Assembly (NCBI GenBank): GCA_903888515.1
Contig: CAISTY010000240.1
Location: 1-64,000, forward strand
Origin: Akkermansiaceae bacterium
Lineage (GTDB): Bacteria > Verrucomicrobiota > Verrucomicrobiia > Verrucomicrobiales > Akkermansiaceae
Direction: 5' to 3'
DNA: 64,000 bases
Below the pieces are notes generated by a model. That model ran no database searches and was not told where the DNA came from. It saw only the letters and a program-made list of their open reading frames with translations. Positions 48,881-64,000 of the stretch are shown here, in pieces. Position numbers and translations under genes: made by a program. How positions within the stretch are numbered: position 1 is the first letter of the stretch; each line of letters begins with the position of its first letter.

Positions 48881-50281
48881 TCAAGGTGCCGCTTCCAGTA
48901 TGTAAGCATCCTTGCCGTCCTTGACCAACCAGCCATGGGTGGCGAGTTCGGCACGCAGGGTGTCGGAAAGCGCCCAGTTTTTGGCCTTGCGGGCTTGCCA
49001 GCGGGCTTCTGCCAGATCGCGGATCTCTTGCGGGATCTCTGCGGACCCGGTGGGAACCTCATCGGGCAGAATCAGACCGAGTGCGTGCAGCAGGCGCTTG
49101 AATCCGGCAAGGGCTGCGGCGGCATCTTTCCCTGTCAGACTGGAGGCTTCACGCAGCCCGACAAAGAGCCCGCCGAGCGCGGCCGGCGTGTTGAGGTCGT
49201 CGTTGAGGCTGTCCCAGGCGGCTTGGAACGGTCCGAGCCCGGCGGCGGGATCCAACAGCGTGTCGGACCCCATGTTGGCGGCCATGGTGCGGGCCCCCTT
49301 GGCGAGTTTGGCAAGTGCCTCGCGTGCTGCTGTTAGCGAATCGAGGGTGAAATTCAACGACTTCCGATAGTGGCCGCCGAGCAGGACATAGCGGACCTCC
49401 ATCGGCGAGAAACCGCGGCTTTCAAGATCCGATAGAGTGTAAAGATTACCGAGGGATTTCGACATTTTCCCGCCATCGACGAGCAGGTGGGCGAGGTGGA
49501 ACCAGTGTGCGGCGAAATGCCCGCCACAGGCACACACGCTCTGGGCAATCTCGTTTTCATGGTGGGGGAAAACCAGATCGACGCCGCCCGAGTGGAGGTC
49601 GAACGAAGCGCCGAGGTATTCTTGGATCATCGCCGAGCACTCGAGGTGCCAACCGGGGCGGCCATCGCCCCACGGTGATGGCCAATAGTTGGCCCCGTCA
49701 TCCGGGCGGCGGGCTTTCCATAACACGAAGTCGGAAACGCTGTCCTTCTCGTATTCATCGGCGTTCGCGCGGGTGTTCTGGGTTTTTCCGAGATCCAATT
49801 CACGTTGGTCGAGCCGCGAGAGTTTGCCGTAGCCGGGAAATGAGGCGATCTTGAAATAGACCGATGCATCGTCGGATAGATACGCGTGACCTTTCGCTAC
49901 CAACTCCCCTATCATGGCGATTTGCTGTGGAATGTGAGCGACCGCCCCCGGTTCGATGTGCGGCGGCAACATGCCGAGTTGCGCGCAGTCGGCATGGAAT
50001 TGCGCCGTCCATGCCGCGGTGAAATCCGCTAGAGATTGGCCGGCCTTGTGGGAATCGCGGATGGTTTTGTCGTCCACGTCGGTGATGTTACGGACGTGGA
50101 ATGTGCGGGTGCCGCCGGTTTCCAAGGTGCGCCGCAGCACGTCCTGCAATACGAAGGTGCGGAAATTTCCAATGTGCGCCGGCCCGTAAACGGTGGGCCC
50201 ACAACAGTAAAACCGATAGGTCGAGCCATCCATCGGGCGCAGCGCGCGTTCGGTCCGGGTCAGCGTGTCAAATAACCGCAT
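48881..50281 (-). CDS. cysS: Cysteinyl-tRNA synthetase
   Basis: A 466-residue class I synthetase. It has the zinc-site Cys in 'YCCGPTVYGPAHIGNFRTF', including the HIGN form of the HIGH motif (about 34-37), later zinc ligands near 'WHLECSAMI' and 'GGVDLVFPHHENEIAQS', and the ATP motif 'GGKMSKSLGN' (about 269-278). It charges tRNA-Cys. The start is ATG 50281 (MRLFDTLTRTE); the track's longer ORF has no family similarity upstream. Confidence 0.96.
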   Translation of the reverse strand: MRLFDTLTRTERALRPMDGSTYRFYCCGPTVYGPAHIGNFRTFVLQDVLRRTLETGGTRTFHVRNITDVDDKTIRDSHKAGQSLADFTAAWTAQFHADCAQLGMLPPHIEPGAVAHIPQQIAMIGELVAKGHAYLSDDASVYFKIASFPGYGKLSRLDQRELDLGKTQNTRANADEYEKDSVSDFVLWKARRPDDGANYWPSPWGDGRPGWHLECSAMIQEYLGASFDLHSGGVDLVFPHHENEIAQSVCACGGHFAAHWFHLAHLLVDGGKMSKSLGNLYTLSDLESRGFSPMEVRYVLLGGHYRKSLNFTLDSLTAAREALAKLAKGARTMAANMGSDTLLDPAAGLGPFQAAWDSLNDDLNTPAALGGLFVGLREASSLTGKDAAAALAGFKRLLHALGLILPDEVPTGSAEIPQEIRDLAEARWQARKAKNWALSDTLRAELATHGWLVKDGKDAYILEAAP

Positions 50282-50411
50282 GACCGGGGTGTAGTGAACG
50301 GAAAGCCAGGAGTCGAGCGCGAAGAACGGAAAGCGGTGAGCGGCCACCTTCCCGGATCTTCTCCGGTGTCATTTATTTTTGAGACAACAGGGTGCAAGGG
50401 TCATTGGGCAC

Positions 50412-51491
50412 TCATTTTCTGCTCGTAATTTCCCTGAACAAAGCGGTTTCCTTGGGATCAAACGGAGATCCGTCTTTCCGCAACAGATCATGAAACCAAC
50501 GTTGCGGCTCGGGAGCATCCTTTTTGGTGCCCCATGCGTAGATCGTCTGAGTCTTGCCGGAAACGAGCCCCCAGTTGTAGCAGCCGACATTCTCTTTCTT
50601 GAAGATAGGCAGGCACGCATTTACCTCGCTGTGACCACGCCGCAGCCATTCCGTGCAGATCACCGCGCGGCCGTGCTTTTTCAAATCGCGAATCTCTGCC
50701 GAAAGCTTACCCGCATCATGGTAGTTGTGGAACGTAATGACATCGGATGCGGCAAGCTGGAAGTCGTTCAGTTCCCGATTCCCGAACCATATCCCCGCAC
50801 TGAGCGGTTGGTCTGGTTTGGCAGCACGGGCCCACTCAAATGCCTTCTTCAGGAGGGGTAGTGATCTGCTTTCCTGGCCGCTATTGCCTGGCTCATTGTA
50901 CAAGTCCCACAAGAGAATGCGTTTGTCCCGAGCGAACGTGCCGATGACATCTTTCACGTACCGCTCCAGCCGAGGCCAAGACTCGGGATTGTTGACAACC
51001 GACTTGCCGGGACTCTGCAACCAGCCGGAATTATGGATGCTGGGGACCGGCTCCGGCTGCTTGCCAATTTTCGGGTTGCCGTTCCAGCAGTCGTCGAAAA
51101 GCACGAACATGGGTCTAATACCGTACTTCTCAGCTATGCCAAGGAACCCTTCGATACGATTCTTGAACCCCTTGGCATCCGCTTCCCATGCCAAGTCATG
51201 GAGATAAACCCTGACCGTATTCATCCCGAGATCAGACGCCCACTTCAGTTCTCTGTCGATGCTAGCGGGGTCGAATGTGTCGCTTTGCCACATTTCAAGC
51301 TGGTTGATCGCAGTGCTGGGAATGAAGTTGCAGCCAACCAGCCAGGGCTGTTTGTCGTACCATTGGTTTGCCTTTTCTGCTGTCCACCGGTTCATTTCGG
51401 TGGCTGGTCCAGACTTTGTTTCTTCGGCATGGGCAGGCAAACTGGACATTGCACCCAAAATCACGATCATCAGCATAAAAATGTGTCTCAT
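50412..51491 (-). CDS. Secreted GH5-like glycoside hydrolase
   Basis: A 359-residue exported protein (signal peptide MIVILGAMSSLPAHA) with a TIM-barrel glycosidase pattern. The acid/base Glu is probably in 'LWDLYNEPGNSG' (about 197-208) and the nucleophile Glu in 'AVICTEWLRRG' (about 277-287), both clan GH-A hallmarks. 'LGMNTVRVYLHDLAWEAD' fits strand 2 of the barrel. The substrate is unclear; cellulase or mannanase-like proteins of family 5 share this layout. It fits the glycan-use theme of the 40-49 kb block but is separated from it by cysS. Confidence 0.82.
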   Translation of the reverse strand: MRHIFMLMIVILGAMSSLPAHAEETKSGPATEMNRWTAEKANQWYDKQPWLVGCNFIPSTAINQLEMWQSDTFDPASIDRELKWASDLGMNTVRVYLHDLAWEADAKGFKNRIEGFLGIAEKYGIRPMFVLFDDCWNGNPKIGKQPEPVPSIHNSGWLQSPGKSVVNNPESWPRLERYVKDVIGTFARDKRILLWDLYNEPGNSGQESRSLPLLKKAFEWARAAKPDQPLSAGIWFGNRELNDFQLAASDVITFHNYHDAGKLSAEIRDLKKHGRAVICTEWLRRGHSEVNACLPIFKKENVGCYNWGLVSGKTQTIYAWGTKKDAPEPQRWFHDLLRKDGSPFDPKETALFREITSRK

Positions 51492-51532
51492 TTCGTTCTC
51501 CTTTTCAGTTCTTGCACCACAGTGTTAATCAG

Positions 51533-51640
51533 CGACCGGTCGGGTTTGGGGAGTGATACACGACGCGTCGTGTATCAGGGGGCAAACCCGACCCGGAAGT
51601 GCTGGACTTCGTCCAGCGCCGCCGTAAAACGGCGTCAGAC
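51533..51640. repeat. Nested palindromic element
   Basis: A perfect 24-bp palindrome, TGATACACGACGCGTCGTGTATCA, lies at 51554-51577 inside an outer pair GTCGGGTTTG / CAAACCCGAC. Two further hairpins follow: GCTGGAC-TTC-GTCCAGC at 51601-51617 and CGCCGT/ACGGCG at about 51620-51634. The following bases to 51797 carry AGAATTCT palindromes but no gene I can support. Confidence 0.85.
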
Positions 51641-51797
51641 AAGCCCCTTCTATCGACCCCGCGCCGTTTCCGCAAGAGAAATTCTTCGACAGAGAATTCT
51701 TCGGCTTTCTTCACCGCATGGATTAACCGCCAAGTCGCCGCCAAGGGATGCGGATGAGGAGGTCACGGGTCACGAGTTGATGGGTCATGGGTGAAGA

Positions 51798-51951
51798 GAT
51801 TGAGGATTGAGGATTGAGGATTGAGGATTGAGGATTGAGGATTGAGGATTGAGGATTGAGGATTGAGGATTGTGGATAGTGGATAGTGGATAGTGGATAG
51901 TGGATAGTGGATAGTGGATAGTGGATAGTGGATAGTGGATAGTGGATAGTG
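51798..51951. repeat. Two fused heptanucleotide tandem arrays
   Basis: Ten copies of GATTGAG (51798-51867) are followed by one hybrid unit GATTGTG (51868-51874) and eleven copies of GATAGTG (51875-51951), in perfect 7-base register and without interruption. Six more GATTGAG copies lie at 63134-63175. Being 7 long, the arrays stay open in several frames, producing the spurious 'NPQSSIL' and 'STIHYPL' repeat ORFs in the track. Confidence 0.97.
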
Positions 51952-52055
51952 GATGATCTTCGATCCACGATCCTCGATCTCCTATCTCCGAGGGGAGGAT
52001 AGCCGTCCCGGCCAATACTGTTCAATTAGCATTTGAAAGCCACTTTCTTGTCGAG

Positions 52056-52415
52056 TTATTGATGTGCCGCCACGCTCCTCTGCTTTGATTGTCGATTGAA
52101 GGTTGTTGATTTTTGATTGGTGAAGTGAGCTTGCTTGGCGCGGATGCTCGGTTTCAAGCTCAGAGCATCATCCCACCGCAAACCCCAATTCTCGATGCAC
52201 ACCCTAACTGAACAACCCACATTCTCATTCTGGACGGCGCGGGAGTATCCCCAACCGTCGGAACAATCAAGGCAGCCTGCAATCACATGGCCAAGCTCGA
52301 ACTCCGCAGTGTCATCAAGGGACAAGACGACCCACTCACCGCTCGCGTGGCATGACTCAGCAAAAACGCCTCGATCATTCTTCGCTGTCAGTGTAATCTT
52401 TCGATATGGGACCAT
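52056..52415 (-). CDS. Small orphan protein, possible integron cassette gene
   Basis: A 119-residue product, MVPYRKITLTAKNDRGVFAESCHASGEWVVLSLDDTAEFELGHVIAGCLDCSDGWG..., with a compact N-terminal ~95 residues of ordinary composition and a weaker basic C-terminus. I do not recognise it. It begins 15 bases after the stop of the preceding minus-strand gene with no attC-like site between them, so the two would share one cassette. The C-terminal ~20 residues may be read-through into repeat DNA. Confidence 0.5.
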   Translation of the reverse strand: MVPYRKITLTAKNDRGVFAESCHASGEWVVLSLDDTAEFELGHVIAGCLDCSDGWGYSRAVQNENVGCSVRVCIENWGLRWDDALSLKPSIRAKQAHFTNQKSTTFNRQSKQRSVAAHQ

Positions 52416-52430
52416 TGTGCGGGAGATGGC

Positions 52431-52757
52431 TCACATCATGACAGCAAACACAATCGCGGCAACGCTCAGGCATAGAGAAATCACGGAAAAGATCGCCAAA
52501 AACCGCAATCGCGACTCCTGCGACTCATTCAATTCCGTCTGGACTCTCAATTCGTTCGCGGTCGCTTGTAACTGCTCCAAGGCGCTTGCGACTACTTCTC
52601 CCATGCGGAGTAAGTCTTCTTCTAGCTTCTTGATTCTCTCTTCCGGTGCCCCGCTTTTAGGGAGAGATCGCCGTTCTCCGAGTGTTGCTACGATACCGCT
52701 TGCAGATGCGATCAGCGGGGTGAGTGCCTTGATGATTGGAATGATCTGGATAGCCAT
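52431..52757 (-). CDS. Small coiled-coil membrane protein, possible integron cassette gene
   Basis: A 108-residue product starting MAIQIIPIIKALTPLIASASG. A hydrophobic N-terminal helix is followed by a coiled coil (EERIKKLEEDLLRMGEVVASALEQLQATANELRVQTELNESQ, about 38-82) and a C-terminal membrane helix (AIFSVISLCLSVAAIVFAVMM). The size and layout resemble holin-like or membrane-stress proteins, but no family is assigned. The start codon lies 14 bases after GTTGTGC, the 3' edge of an attC-like structure. The track's start at 52850 runs through that structure and is rejected. Confidence 0.6.
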   Translation of the reverse strand: MAIQIIPIIKALTPLIASASGIVATLGERRSLPKSGAPEERIKKLEEDLLRMGEVVASALEQLQATANELRVQTELNESQESRLRFLAIFSVISLCLSVAAIVFAVMM

Positions 52758-52771
52758 ATTATATTTTTTCC

Positions 52772-52866
52772 GCACAACGTTTTTGTGATGGCGGCCGCGT
52801 GGTTGAGGTGATTCAGCGGGGTGGTTGAGGAGCTTCTGGCGGCTTGCCATCCACTACTTGTTCTGC
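52772..52866 (-). other. attC-like recombination site (95 bp)
   Basis: Read on the minus strand it begins GCAGAAC and ends GTTGTGC. The arms GTGGATGGCAAGCCGC and GCGGCCGCCATCAC pair with two extra bases on the 5' arm only. An unpaired spacer (AAGTA opposite the AAAAA-type stretch) separates this inner stem from the outer AAC/GTT boxes. Outer box, spacer, inner box with extrahelical bases on one side and a variable loop is the layout of integron attC sites. The outer 7-mers deviate from the textbook GTTRRRY. Confidence 0.55.
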
Positions 52867-52871
52867 CTGGG

Positions 52872-53189
52872 TCAATCGTCGATCTCCTCGAGTAGCGTCT
52901 TCAATGCTTTGATCAATTGTGCTTTGGCATCCGTCTTGTCGTCAACGTGCTCGGTATATGCGACACTCTTGATTCCTAGCCTTCCCTTAACGATCTCCGA
53001 TGTGGGATCATGGGATAGCACAATATCTGCAACCATCTGCGGATCGACGGCTTCAACCACCAAGGTGGATTTGTTCCGCATCTTGACCGTGAGGATGTCG
53101 CCTTCTATGCGGCCGGATGCGACCTCCCATGAATTCCAAAGGAGTTTGACCGTGGGTTCTTTGTCGGTGATGATTACAAGTCGTCTCAT
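52872..53189 (-). CDS. Small orphan protein, possible integron cassette gene
   Basis: A 105-residue product, MRRLVIITDKEPTVKLLWNSWEVASGRIEGDILTVKMRNKSTLVVEAVDPQMVADIVLSHDPTSEIVKGRLGIKSVAYTEHVDDKTDAKAQLIKALKTLLEEIDD. The beta-strand-rich N-terminal half and helical acidic C-terminus look like a real folded protein. I do not recognise the family. The start lies 15 bases after GTTCTGC, the 3' edge of the 53205-53331 structure, and the stop is followed 5 bases later by the next structure. This is one ORF per attC-like site, as in a gene cassette. Confidence 0.6.
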   Translation of the reverse strand: MRRLVIITDKEPTVKLLWNSWEVASGRIEGDILTVKMRNKSTLVVEAVDPQMVADIVLSHDPTSEIVKGRLGIKSVAYTEHVDDKTDAKAQLIKALKTLLEEIDD

Positions 53190-53204
53190 ATTATATTTGT
53201 TTTT

Positions 53205-53331
53205 GCAGAACGATGAGCACATCCACCACTAGGAGCGGGGGCGGGCGCGGATCAAGGGGTTGATGTTGCAAATACGGAATGTCATGGTAACAGAACGGCT
53301 CCTAGTGGTTGGATGATGCGGCTTGTTCTCC
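53205..53331 (-). other. attC-like recombination site (127 bp)
   Basis: On the minus strand it runs from GGAGAAC to GTTCTGC. The 5' arm GCATCATCCAACCACTAGGAGC pairs with the 3' arm GCTCCTAGTGGTGGATGTGC along 20 pairs, leaving exactly two extra bases on the 5' arm. A mismatched spacer (AAGCC opposite CGATG-type bases) separates it from the outer AAC/GTT boxes. The loop is about 58 bases. Length and layout match VCR-type attC sites. Confidence 0.62.
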
Positions 53332-53351
53332 GGTCTTTTTCTATGTGCGGG

Positions 53352-53801
53352 TCATTTGGGCCAGAGTTCTTCATTGCTTCCGCTCTCGTAGCTCACTGAC
53401 GCATCAAACTCCCACTCAGATTCATCCTTGCCAGTGAGCCTCGCCCACGCATTACGTTGGGGATAAAGCAAGGCCTCACACCATCCATCAAGTGTCTTTG
53501 GCATCAGTTGTGGATTCGCTAGCGTCGCTTCATAATGCTCCTTACCCTGTGCCACTACAAAACACCTTGCATACAGGAATGCATCGTCGGAATCTCCCGA
53601 CTCGCCAGACTCATTGGCGAACACCTCGCCATCAAGCGCATACAAGCACTGTGACAAATGCTCCTCAAATGCTTCCAACTCTGTGATCGGTAGTGATGAG
53701 AGTTGTTCTTCGAGTGGCGCAATAGCCGTATCTTCGTCGCCTACAAGAAGGGCCTCTTTGTCGATGCTCTCGATGTGATGCCAAAATTCGTCGCGTGTCA
53801 T
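53352..53801 (-). CDS. DUF4240-like protein, possible integron cassette gene
   Basis: A 149-residue acidic protein starting MTRDEFWHHIESIDKEALLVGDEDTAIAPLEEQLSSLPITELEAFEEHLSQCLYALDGEVF. The F-W-x-x-I-E opening, the L-x-x-L-x-x-x-E-L-x-x-F-E block and the 'FLYARCFVVAQGKEHYEATLANP' segment match the DUF4240 pattern seen in bacterial immunity-type and cassette genes. Its function is unknown. The start is ATG 53801, 16 bases after GTTCTCC (minus strand), the same arrangement as in the two downstream genes. The 127-bp attC-like site follows 20 bases after the stop. Confidence 0.7.
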   Translation of the reverse strand: MTRDEFWHHIESIDKEALLVGDEDTAIAPLEEQLSSLPITELEAFEEHLSQCLYALDGEVFANESGESGDSDDAFLYARCFVVAQGKEHYEATLANPQLMPKTLDGWCEALLYPQRNAWARLTGKDESEWEFDASVSYESGSNEELWPK

Positions 53802-53817
53802 AGGTCTTCTTTTTCTT

Positions 53818-53923
53818 GGAGAACAGTGTTGTTCGCCGTGAGGAGGGTGGATAAGTGTTGCGTGGGGGACAAGCGAATTCTGATAATCGATCACGCGGCA
53901 CGCTGATTTACAGACGGTTGGGA
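53818..53923 (-). other. Possible diverged attC/attI-like region
   Basis: GGAGAAC (plus strand 53818-53824, minus-strand GTTCTCC) sits 16 bases before the DUF4240 start, exactly as the outer box does in the two better sites. A possible partner GTTGGGA lies at 53917-53923, with a weak inner pairing (CGCCGTGA with TCACGCGGC). The arms match poorly, so this could be a decayed attC or the edge of an attachment site. The rest of 53924-54165 has an imperfect ATATCCATGGATAC palindrome and no gene I can support. Confidence 0.3.
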
Positions 53924-54165
53924 CTTTGGTTTTGATGCCAGGAATTTCAGGTGGGTTGTTTTTTCAGGAATTGCAAATCAAACAGATATGCCTTCCTCAA
54001 GGTGATGCGATTTCTTGGATACACGGAATATCCATGGATACGAATGATGCGTATTTTTGATTGCCGCGCCCGCGCGCATCCACCATAACCGTCGCTCCTG
54101 TAAACGCCGTGGTGACTGTGTTGCGGCGGCACAACAACAAAGCAAACCAACAGACAGACATCCAC

Positions 54166-63304: not shown

Positions 63305-63615
63305 AGTTTTTTGTTGGAAGAGGAAGAGAATTTGAACAGGAGGGAACGGAGGGTGCCAAATGGAGGGATTTTCAAGCAGATCTTTGACGATTTATTTGCT
63401 TTGATTTTTGAATTGATTGAATTGAAAAGAGCGCTGGGACCCCATCCTCCGTTCCCTCTGTTTGCTCCTGTTACTGATCCGGAATGTGGTGCTAGAAACC
63501 CATTTGAACGGTCGCACTCTCAGGTAGGCCGACCAAGGACGGTAGTTTGCACGGACGGATGCAACAGGAAAACATCTCGCATCTGGGGCCGCTCACAATC
63601 GATCCAGCGGACTCC

Positions 63616-63786
63616 TCACCCCCATTCCTTCCAAAATCGCGTGCAGGTCTCGCGCCCCAGGCGCAGTCCGTGGGCGCTGGTAAACTTCTCCAGCCAACCC
63701 AGCAACATCGCAAATGCGGGTGCTTCCCGCTGCCGCACATCGCTCGAAGCCTCTAGAATCTTGAAAGCGCGATTATCGTGTGGTTA
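63616..63786 (-). pseudogene. Possible tyrosine-recombinase N-terminal fragment
   Basis: An open stretch of about 56 codons on the minus strand, bounded by stops, reads 'PHDNRAFKILEASSDVRQREAPAFAMLLGWLEKFTSAHGLRLGRETCTRFWKEWG'. The helical 'LLGWLEKF' and 'GRETCTRFWKE' recall the N-terminal SAM-like domain of Verrucomicrobiota site-specific integrases, but the match is from memory of the pattern and there is no start codon or catalytic domain. The remainder of 63787-64000 has three GGTCTCT heptamers (63804-63824) and a short reading 'RHALFAFILRMDQQAWKQALENHARQQIPHR' with no recognised family. Confidence 0.25.
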
Positions 63787-64000
63787 GGTCAGGTTTGCTA
63801 TCTGGTCTCTGGTCTCTGGTCTCTGGGGTCTGAGGCGAAGCCTCGCTAGATCCTTCGACTATGCTCCGTCTTATCGATGAGGGATCTGCTGACGAGCGTG
63901 GTTCTCGAGTGCCTGCTTCCACGCTTGCTGATCCATTCGCAAAATGAATGCGAACAAGGCATGACGCACCAACCGGCCATGAGCTTTTCAAATTCATTTC

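Follow-up and report, generated by a model that had tools for sequence, protein, structure and literature searches.

A gene-cassette array with an attI-like site and no integrase gene beside it, in an Akkermansiaceae genome that carries many related leaders

Results and Discussion

Layout of the cassette array

The window analysed here comprises the first 64,000 nucleotides of contig CAISTY010000240.1 (denoted C240) of an Akkermansiaceae bacterium. Positions 52056 to 54063 hold a series of small genes, two intergenic palindromes and a leader sequence (gamma, one of three leader families described below), all on the reverse strand:

53822..54063, minus strand: putative attI platform (gamma leader), 89-90% identical to C138:1-240 and C164:32655-32895
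53824-53822, minus strand: predicted crossover triplet GTT of the window attI
53211..53823, minus strand: cassette 1, which runs from the TT in attI up to the G preceding the next GTT; start box TTCTCC, perfect with its own R'' box GGAGAAC
53352..53801, minus strand: DUF4240 gene of cassette 1, 149 aa; PF14024, E 6.6e-23 (Pfam)
53205..53331, minus strand: predicted attC of cassette 1 (site A); covariance model 54.0 bits, E 1.4e-10; DNA fold z -2.9
52778..53210, minus strand: cassette 2; start box TTCTGC, perfect with its own R'' box GCAGAAC
52872..53189, minus strand: ORF2 of cassette 2, 105 aa; no family found
52772..52866, minus strand: predicted attC of cassette 2 (site B); covariance model 61.0 bits, E 3.1e-12; DNA fold no better than shuffles
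52431..52757, minus strand: ORF3 of cassette 3, 108 aa; no family above the cut-off
52414..52420, minus strand: GCACAAT, remnant of the R'' box of cassette 3 (predicted GCACAAC); the rest of its attC is absent
52056..52415, minus strand: ORF4, 119 aa, past the last recognisable site; no attC before or after it

The original prediction, made from the sequence alone, described this region as an integron-like array of four genes, three of which start 14-16 bases after a GTT[CG]T[GC]C box. The spacing was borne out: GTTCTCC (53824-53818, minus strand) lies 16 bases ahead of the ATG of the DUF4240 gene at 53801, GTTCTGC (53211-53205, minus) lies 15 bases ahead of the ATG of ORF2 at 53189, and GTTGTGC (52778-52772, minus) lies 14 bases ahead of the ATG of ORF3 at 52757. 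The expectation of one DUF4240-like product among otherwise unfamiliar ones was also met, and searches of Rfam, PADLOC and NCBIfam gave no match for the window cassette genes. The count of four, by contrast, has to be reduced, because ORF4 is not bounded by any attC and was not shown to be an intact cassette. Given the start box GTTGTGC, cassette 3 should carry an R'' box GCACAAC; since only GCACAAT is present and no attC follows it (a search of 49800-52700 with filters off found none), the attC of this cassette is broken. The array thus consists of an attI, which the original prediction had missed, two intact cassettes and a third with a broken attC, and is therefore partly decayed.

The intergenic palindromes as attC sites

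Sites A and B are imperfect palindromes bounded by outer AAC...GTT boxes and containing a mismatched spacer, as the original prediction had it. Both show the R''-L''-L'-R' layout, and bases without a partner occur on one arm, the 5' arm. A scan for pairing arms at high stringency recovered only site A in the scanned sequences, with no hit in 486 kb of shuffled DNA; a looser scan recovered site B. Free DNA folding, the check that had been proposed for both sites, was supportive for site A (z -2.7 to -2.9) and unsupportive for site B (z 0 to -0.55), whose attC fold is not its minimum-energy fold. An Rfam search gave no family match.

Covariance models were more decisive. The first (R1) was built from six seed sites, two of them from the window, with trimmed arms, a filler loop and one row padded by one base, and found 46 sites at E < 0.02 in the genome. 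The second (R2) was built from 60 natural sites and excluded the two window sites; its members had first been found with R1, and its independence from the window sites is good but not complete. It was R2 that gave the bit scores and E-values listed above. Judged from these models, sites A and B are attC sites, as had been proposed, in the absence of any recombination data.

Further similar sites are plentiful. We counted at least 79 distinct attC sites on 33 contigs of the genome, of which only extracted stretches were examined, and attC matches were present in 63 of 73 genomes of the genus. Neither of the window R' boxes, GTTCTGC and GTTGTGC, fits the consensus GTTRRRY, and this had prompted the suggestion of a divergent attC family, or else of another structured spacer with the same shape. 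GTTSTGC is no separate attC family: of the 44 R' boxes in this genome, only 7 agree with GTTRRRY and 26 have C as their fourth base, and boxes ending in CTGC and GTGC are found again at other loci. It is therefore the consensus that differs here, not membership of the integrons.

Cassettes as units

An integrated attC is a hybrid, with its R'' box and stem coming from one cassette and its R' box from the next, while in the free cassette circle the start box of a cassette meets its own R'' box. It follows from this hybrid nature that a start box should pair more closely with its own R'' box, although hundreds of bases separate them, than one half of a site pairs with the other. In the window, the R' box of site A (GTTCTGC) derives from cassette 2 and that of site B (GTTGTGC) from cassette 3, and the mismatch observed inside each of the two sites is as expected of such a hybrid. 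Between leaders and the first attC behind them, 3.86 of 4 variable pairs matched on average, with 18 of 21 pairs perfect; between consecutive attC sites, start box and own R'' box matched in 3.26 of 4. In neither comparison did any of 20,000 shuffles reach as high a value. Pairing within the attC sites of the genome was 2.48, against 2.22 when shuffled. The leader statistic excludes the window's own leader pair, which was separately found to be perfect. Cassettes 1 (TTCTCC/GGAGAA) and 2 (TTCTGC/GCAGAA) both pair perfectly with their own boxes, and cassette 3 is the only one broken. Such perfect matching is, as far as sequence can tell, the signature of units that were once circular.

An intact integrase beside a sister attI

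The two sister copies of the window leader differ in what follows them. On contig C138 the leader directly adjoins an intact, divergent integron integrase gene (C138:274-1542, locus L010, 423 aa), whose product scores 293 bits against TIGR02249 (cut-off 265) and aligns over residues 119-416, the catalytic part, with IntI4 (2A3V). On C164 the leader runs into two other cassettes and no intI is present. All three gamma copies diverge at about the same base (CAATCAAAAA), just ahead of the start of the C138 intI. From this homology we infer that 53822-54063 is an attI site of the same family as that of the genome's intact integron. Because the assembly is a draft in 309 contigs, a larger array belonging to C138 may be missing from it; C138 itself starts inside attI, at the crossover triplet, as would be expected if the assembler met several continuations there. 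A search of the leader for promoters of the sigma-70 consensus gave none, other promoter types lying outside its scope. A narrow pattern of start box plus A-rich leader retrieved the window alone, being too specific.

Among the integrase matches listed, none lay on contig C240; there is only a short remnant, outside the array, near the right end of the window. The original prediction had left a choice between an attC cluster lacking an integrase and an array whose integrase lies elsewhere. The former covers the two attC sites with no intI at the array, and falls short in that the array has its own attI; the latter agrees with the intact IntI found beside a sister attI. We are highly confident that the window contains an integron platform without an integrase gene of its own, served by an integrase encoded elsewhere in the genome, with activity in trans being inferred.

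In the mechanism that we propose, cassettes would move as circles, recombined via folded single-stranded attC sites, and an IntI acting in trans would insert these circles at the GTT of attI. The C138 IntI is the best candidate enzyme for the gamma family; that the same enzyme also recognises the alpha and beta families is inferred. Solitary attI copies may serve as alternative docking sites and cassettes may be expressed from the leader, two further inferences for which, as for recombination in trans, there are no activity data.

Two side observations concern the integrases of this genus. At the N-terminus of its IntI proteins, that of C138 included, lies an additional domain of some 115 aa without a Pfam match. 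In the relative G026, at 1501-1725 of contig C9 (L024), a partial gamma leader is followed by an intI cut off after the first few dozen codons, which is a snapshot of integrase loss.

Many leaders in one genome

By locating the start of each attC cluster via its predicted box, we found a small number of repeated leaders at the cluster starts, most of them ending in ...ACT/GTT (the slash marking the crossover). There are about 28 near-full-length leaders (11 alpha, 14 beta and 3 gamma), together with several partial alpha copies and one short fourth gamma copy. GTT is invariant in the 14 beta and 11 alpha copies. Over the ten bases directly ahead of it, identity is 0.99 in beta and 0.93 in alpha; past GTT, identity drops to 0.49 and 0.55, respectively, and then to about 0.25, each copy opening onto a different cassette. 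A further alpha copy (C128:10959) has GTC in place of GTT. Integrase traces adjoin a few leaders, namely a 97-aa IntI remnant beside the beta leader on C50 and weak C-terminal matches to an IntI-type gene preceding the leaders on C118 and C185. The leader units have rather fixed 5' ends and occur among other short dispersed repeats, a setting that suggests copying of the leaders as units, although intI may instead have been lost at many loci. Rather than being kept together, the integrase and the docking sites seem to be dispersed across the chromosome.

Other properties of the leaders were noted in passing. The beta unit has inverted repeats, identified by eye (GTGATATCCG...CGGATATCAC), which we weighed as a possible hint of a transposon-like origin. 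Alpha leaders (for example G000:C42:183-353) contain a long palindrome ahead of the crossover, whose sequence varies by subfamily while palindromy is kept; this may be an operator or an RNA hairpin. On C50 (L101:2276-3964) a 562-aa reverse transcriptase, judged from its sequence to be of the group II intron type, lies just past an attC, within a cassette array.

Leaders and arrays in relatives

Position in related genomes also marks the alpha and beta leaders as putative attI sites. In G026 and G032 the beta leader has a divergent intact intI on one flank and the cassette side on the other. In G006 and G069 an IntI-type integrase gene has the alpha leader on its 3' side, in the same orientation. 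The well-assembled genome G018 (7 Mb in 70 contigs) carries beta leaders at nine scattered places, mostly followed by arrays; two of these fall within one 266-kb contig, so that fragmentation does not explain the scatter. The complete relative G004 has a classical array of about 110 attC sites and several smaller arrays. No relatives of the window cassette genes were found in the loci examined, and an empty-site comparison via the neighbouring DUF5069 gene was uninformative, its neighbours not being conserved in relatives.

How the window array may have arisen

The usual description of an integron has a single integrase, a single attI and a single array, along which expression declines. The genome studied here may depart from this scheme as a distributed integron, in which one or a few integrases serve dozens of solitary attI sites, multiplied as leader units of about 160-240 bp, and many cassettes are first at once. 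We judge the chances of this proposal to be even. The most serious competitor of an array served in trans is an inert relic, in which a complete integron lost the intI beside its attI and the array now decays in place with no integrase acting on it. This remains possible, and we consider it doubtful. Integrase remnants do adjoin leaders and arrays elsewhere in the genome, and also in relatives, and the attC of the third cassette is broken; yet the same genome has an intact IntI with a cognate attI, the boxes of both intact cassettes are perfectly matched, similarity among the three gamma copies ends at one and the same base, just ahead of the intI start, and about 28 separate losses of intI would be required genome-wide.

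An IntI acting from another place could also have left the cassettes at a random, attG-like site, which would account for the lack of intI at the window array; integrase-less clusters are known to arise in this way (PMC8618304; attG work cited in PMC11023631). We regard this as very improbable: what precedes cassette 1 is no random site but repeats, over 240 bp, the attI stretch adjoining the C138 intI. Although contradicted at this locus, such insertion may account for single cassettes elsewhere. As for an ordinary operon with structured spacers that merely resemble attC, the common strand of all the genes and the failure of site B alone to fold better than shuffles would be compatible with it. 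The matching of boxes hundreds of bases apart, the attI common to the window and an intI locus, the covariance-model E-values of both sites, the lack of any Rfam match and the absence of relatives of the cassette genes in the loci examined refute it for practical purposes.

Comparison with known integrons

Integrons are known from many phyla, and their integrase-less clusters have been ascribed to off-target insertion, loss of intI or rearrangement, not to repeated attI units (PMC8618304). Repeated attI platforms, if the proposal of a distributed integron is correct, would add a further origin, and about 28 of them with at least 79 attC sites would provide many first positions at once. The aligned leader repeats also supply attI sites, which are poorly described outside class 1 (PMC9024848); one attI per integron has been a working assumption (PMC3607928). 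We found no report of many solitary attI sites in one genome, most subscription journals being outside the search.

The window array resembles sedentary chromosomal integrons (Vibrio, Xanthomonas, G004) in its attI, its one-arm unpaired bases in attC, its matched boxes and the integron-subfamily IntI of its genome. It differs in having a platform without intI, and its genome differs in having about 28 near-full-length leaders instead of one or few attI sites, short arrays at many loci and R' boxes that mostly do not fit GTTRRRY. CALIN elements (attC clusters without an integrase) likewise have attC sites, here two, with no integrase nearby, but the window has in addition a recognisable attI of the family of the genome's intact integron. 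Integrase-less clusters are also found at seven loci in several species of Xanthomonas (PMC12444791). Insertion at attG sites (Loot et al. 2024, cited in PMC11023631) is similar in that an integrase in trans places cassettes at many chromosomal sites; those are degenerate genomic sites, whereas the docking sites here would be copies of attI leaders. In the delta-attI-type cassettes of mobile integrons an attI also lies away from its platform, but in those it is a truncated attI that takes the place of the terminal attC of a resistance cassette, while here whole leaders stand ahead of chromosomal arrays (PMC12901181). The inverse integrons of Treponema (PMC3607928) resemble the arrangement in G006 and G069. 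They belong to another genus, and the window's genome shows only weak C-terminal remnants before two leaders.

Other features of the window

Between the array and the neighbouring gene lie tandem short repeats, GATTGAG and GGATAGT (window 51780-51960), and related intergenic repeats precede many leaders elsewhere. Further along, a partial alpha leader (51592-51687, minus strand) lies ahead of a glycoside-hydrolase-like gene (50412-51491) and reads AACACTG/TGGTGC at the expected crossover, rather than GTT. No attC was found after this gene, which could have been captured as a first cassette or could belong to the host and use the alpha leader.

A second, decayed integron lies at the right end of the window (63604-63762, minus strand, and 63949-64000, plus strand) and continues on C240 to 64794. 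The first of these segments, which six different IntI sequences hit at E 0.001 to 0.075, is a remnant of an IntI N-terminal domain, and an attC array begins about 190 bases past it on the opposite strand. The attC at 63949 is cut by the window end, where it reaches only E 0.07 with model R2; on the contig it is complete.
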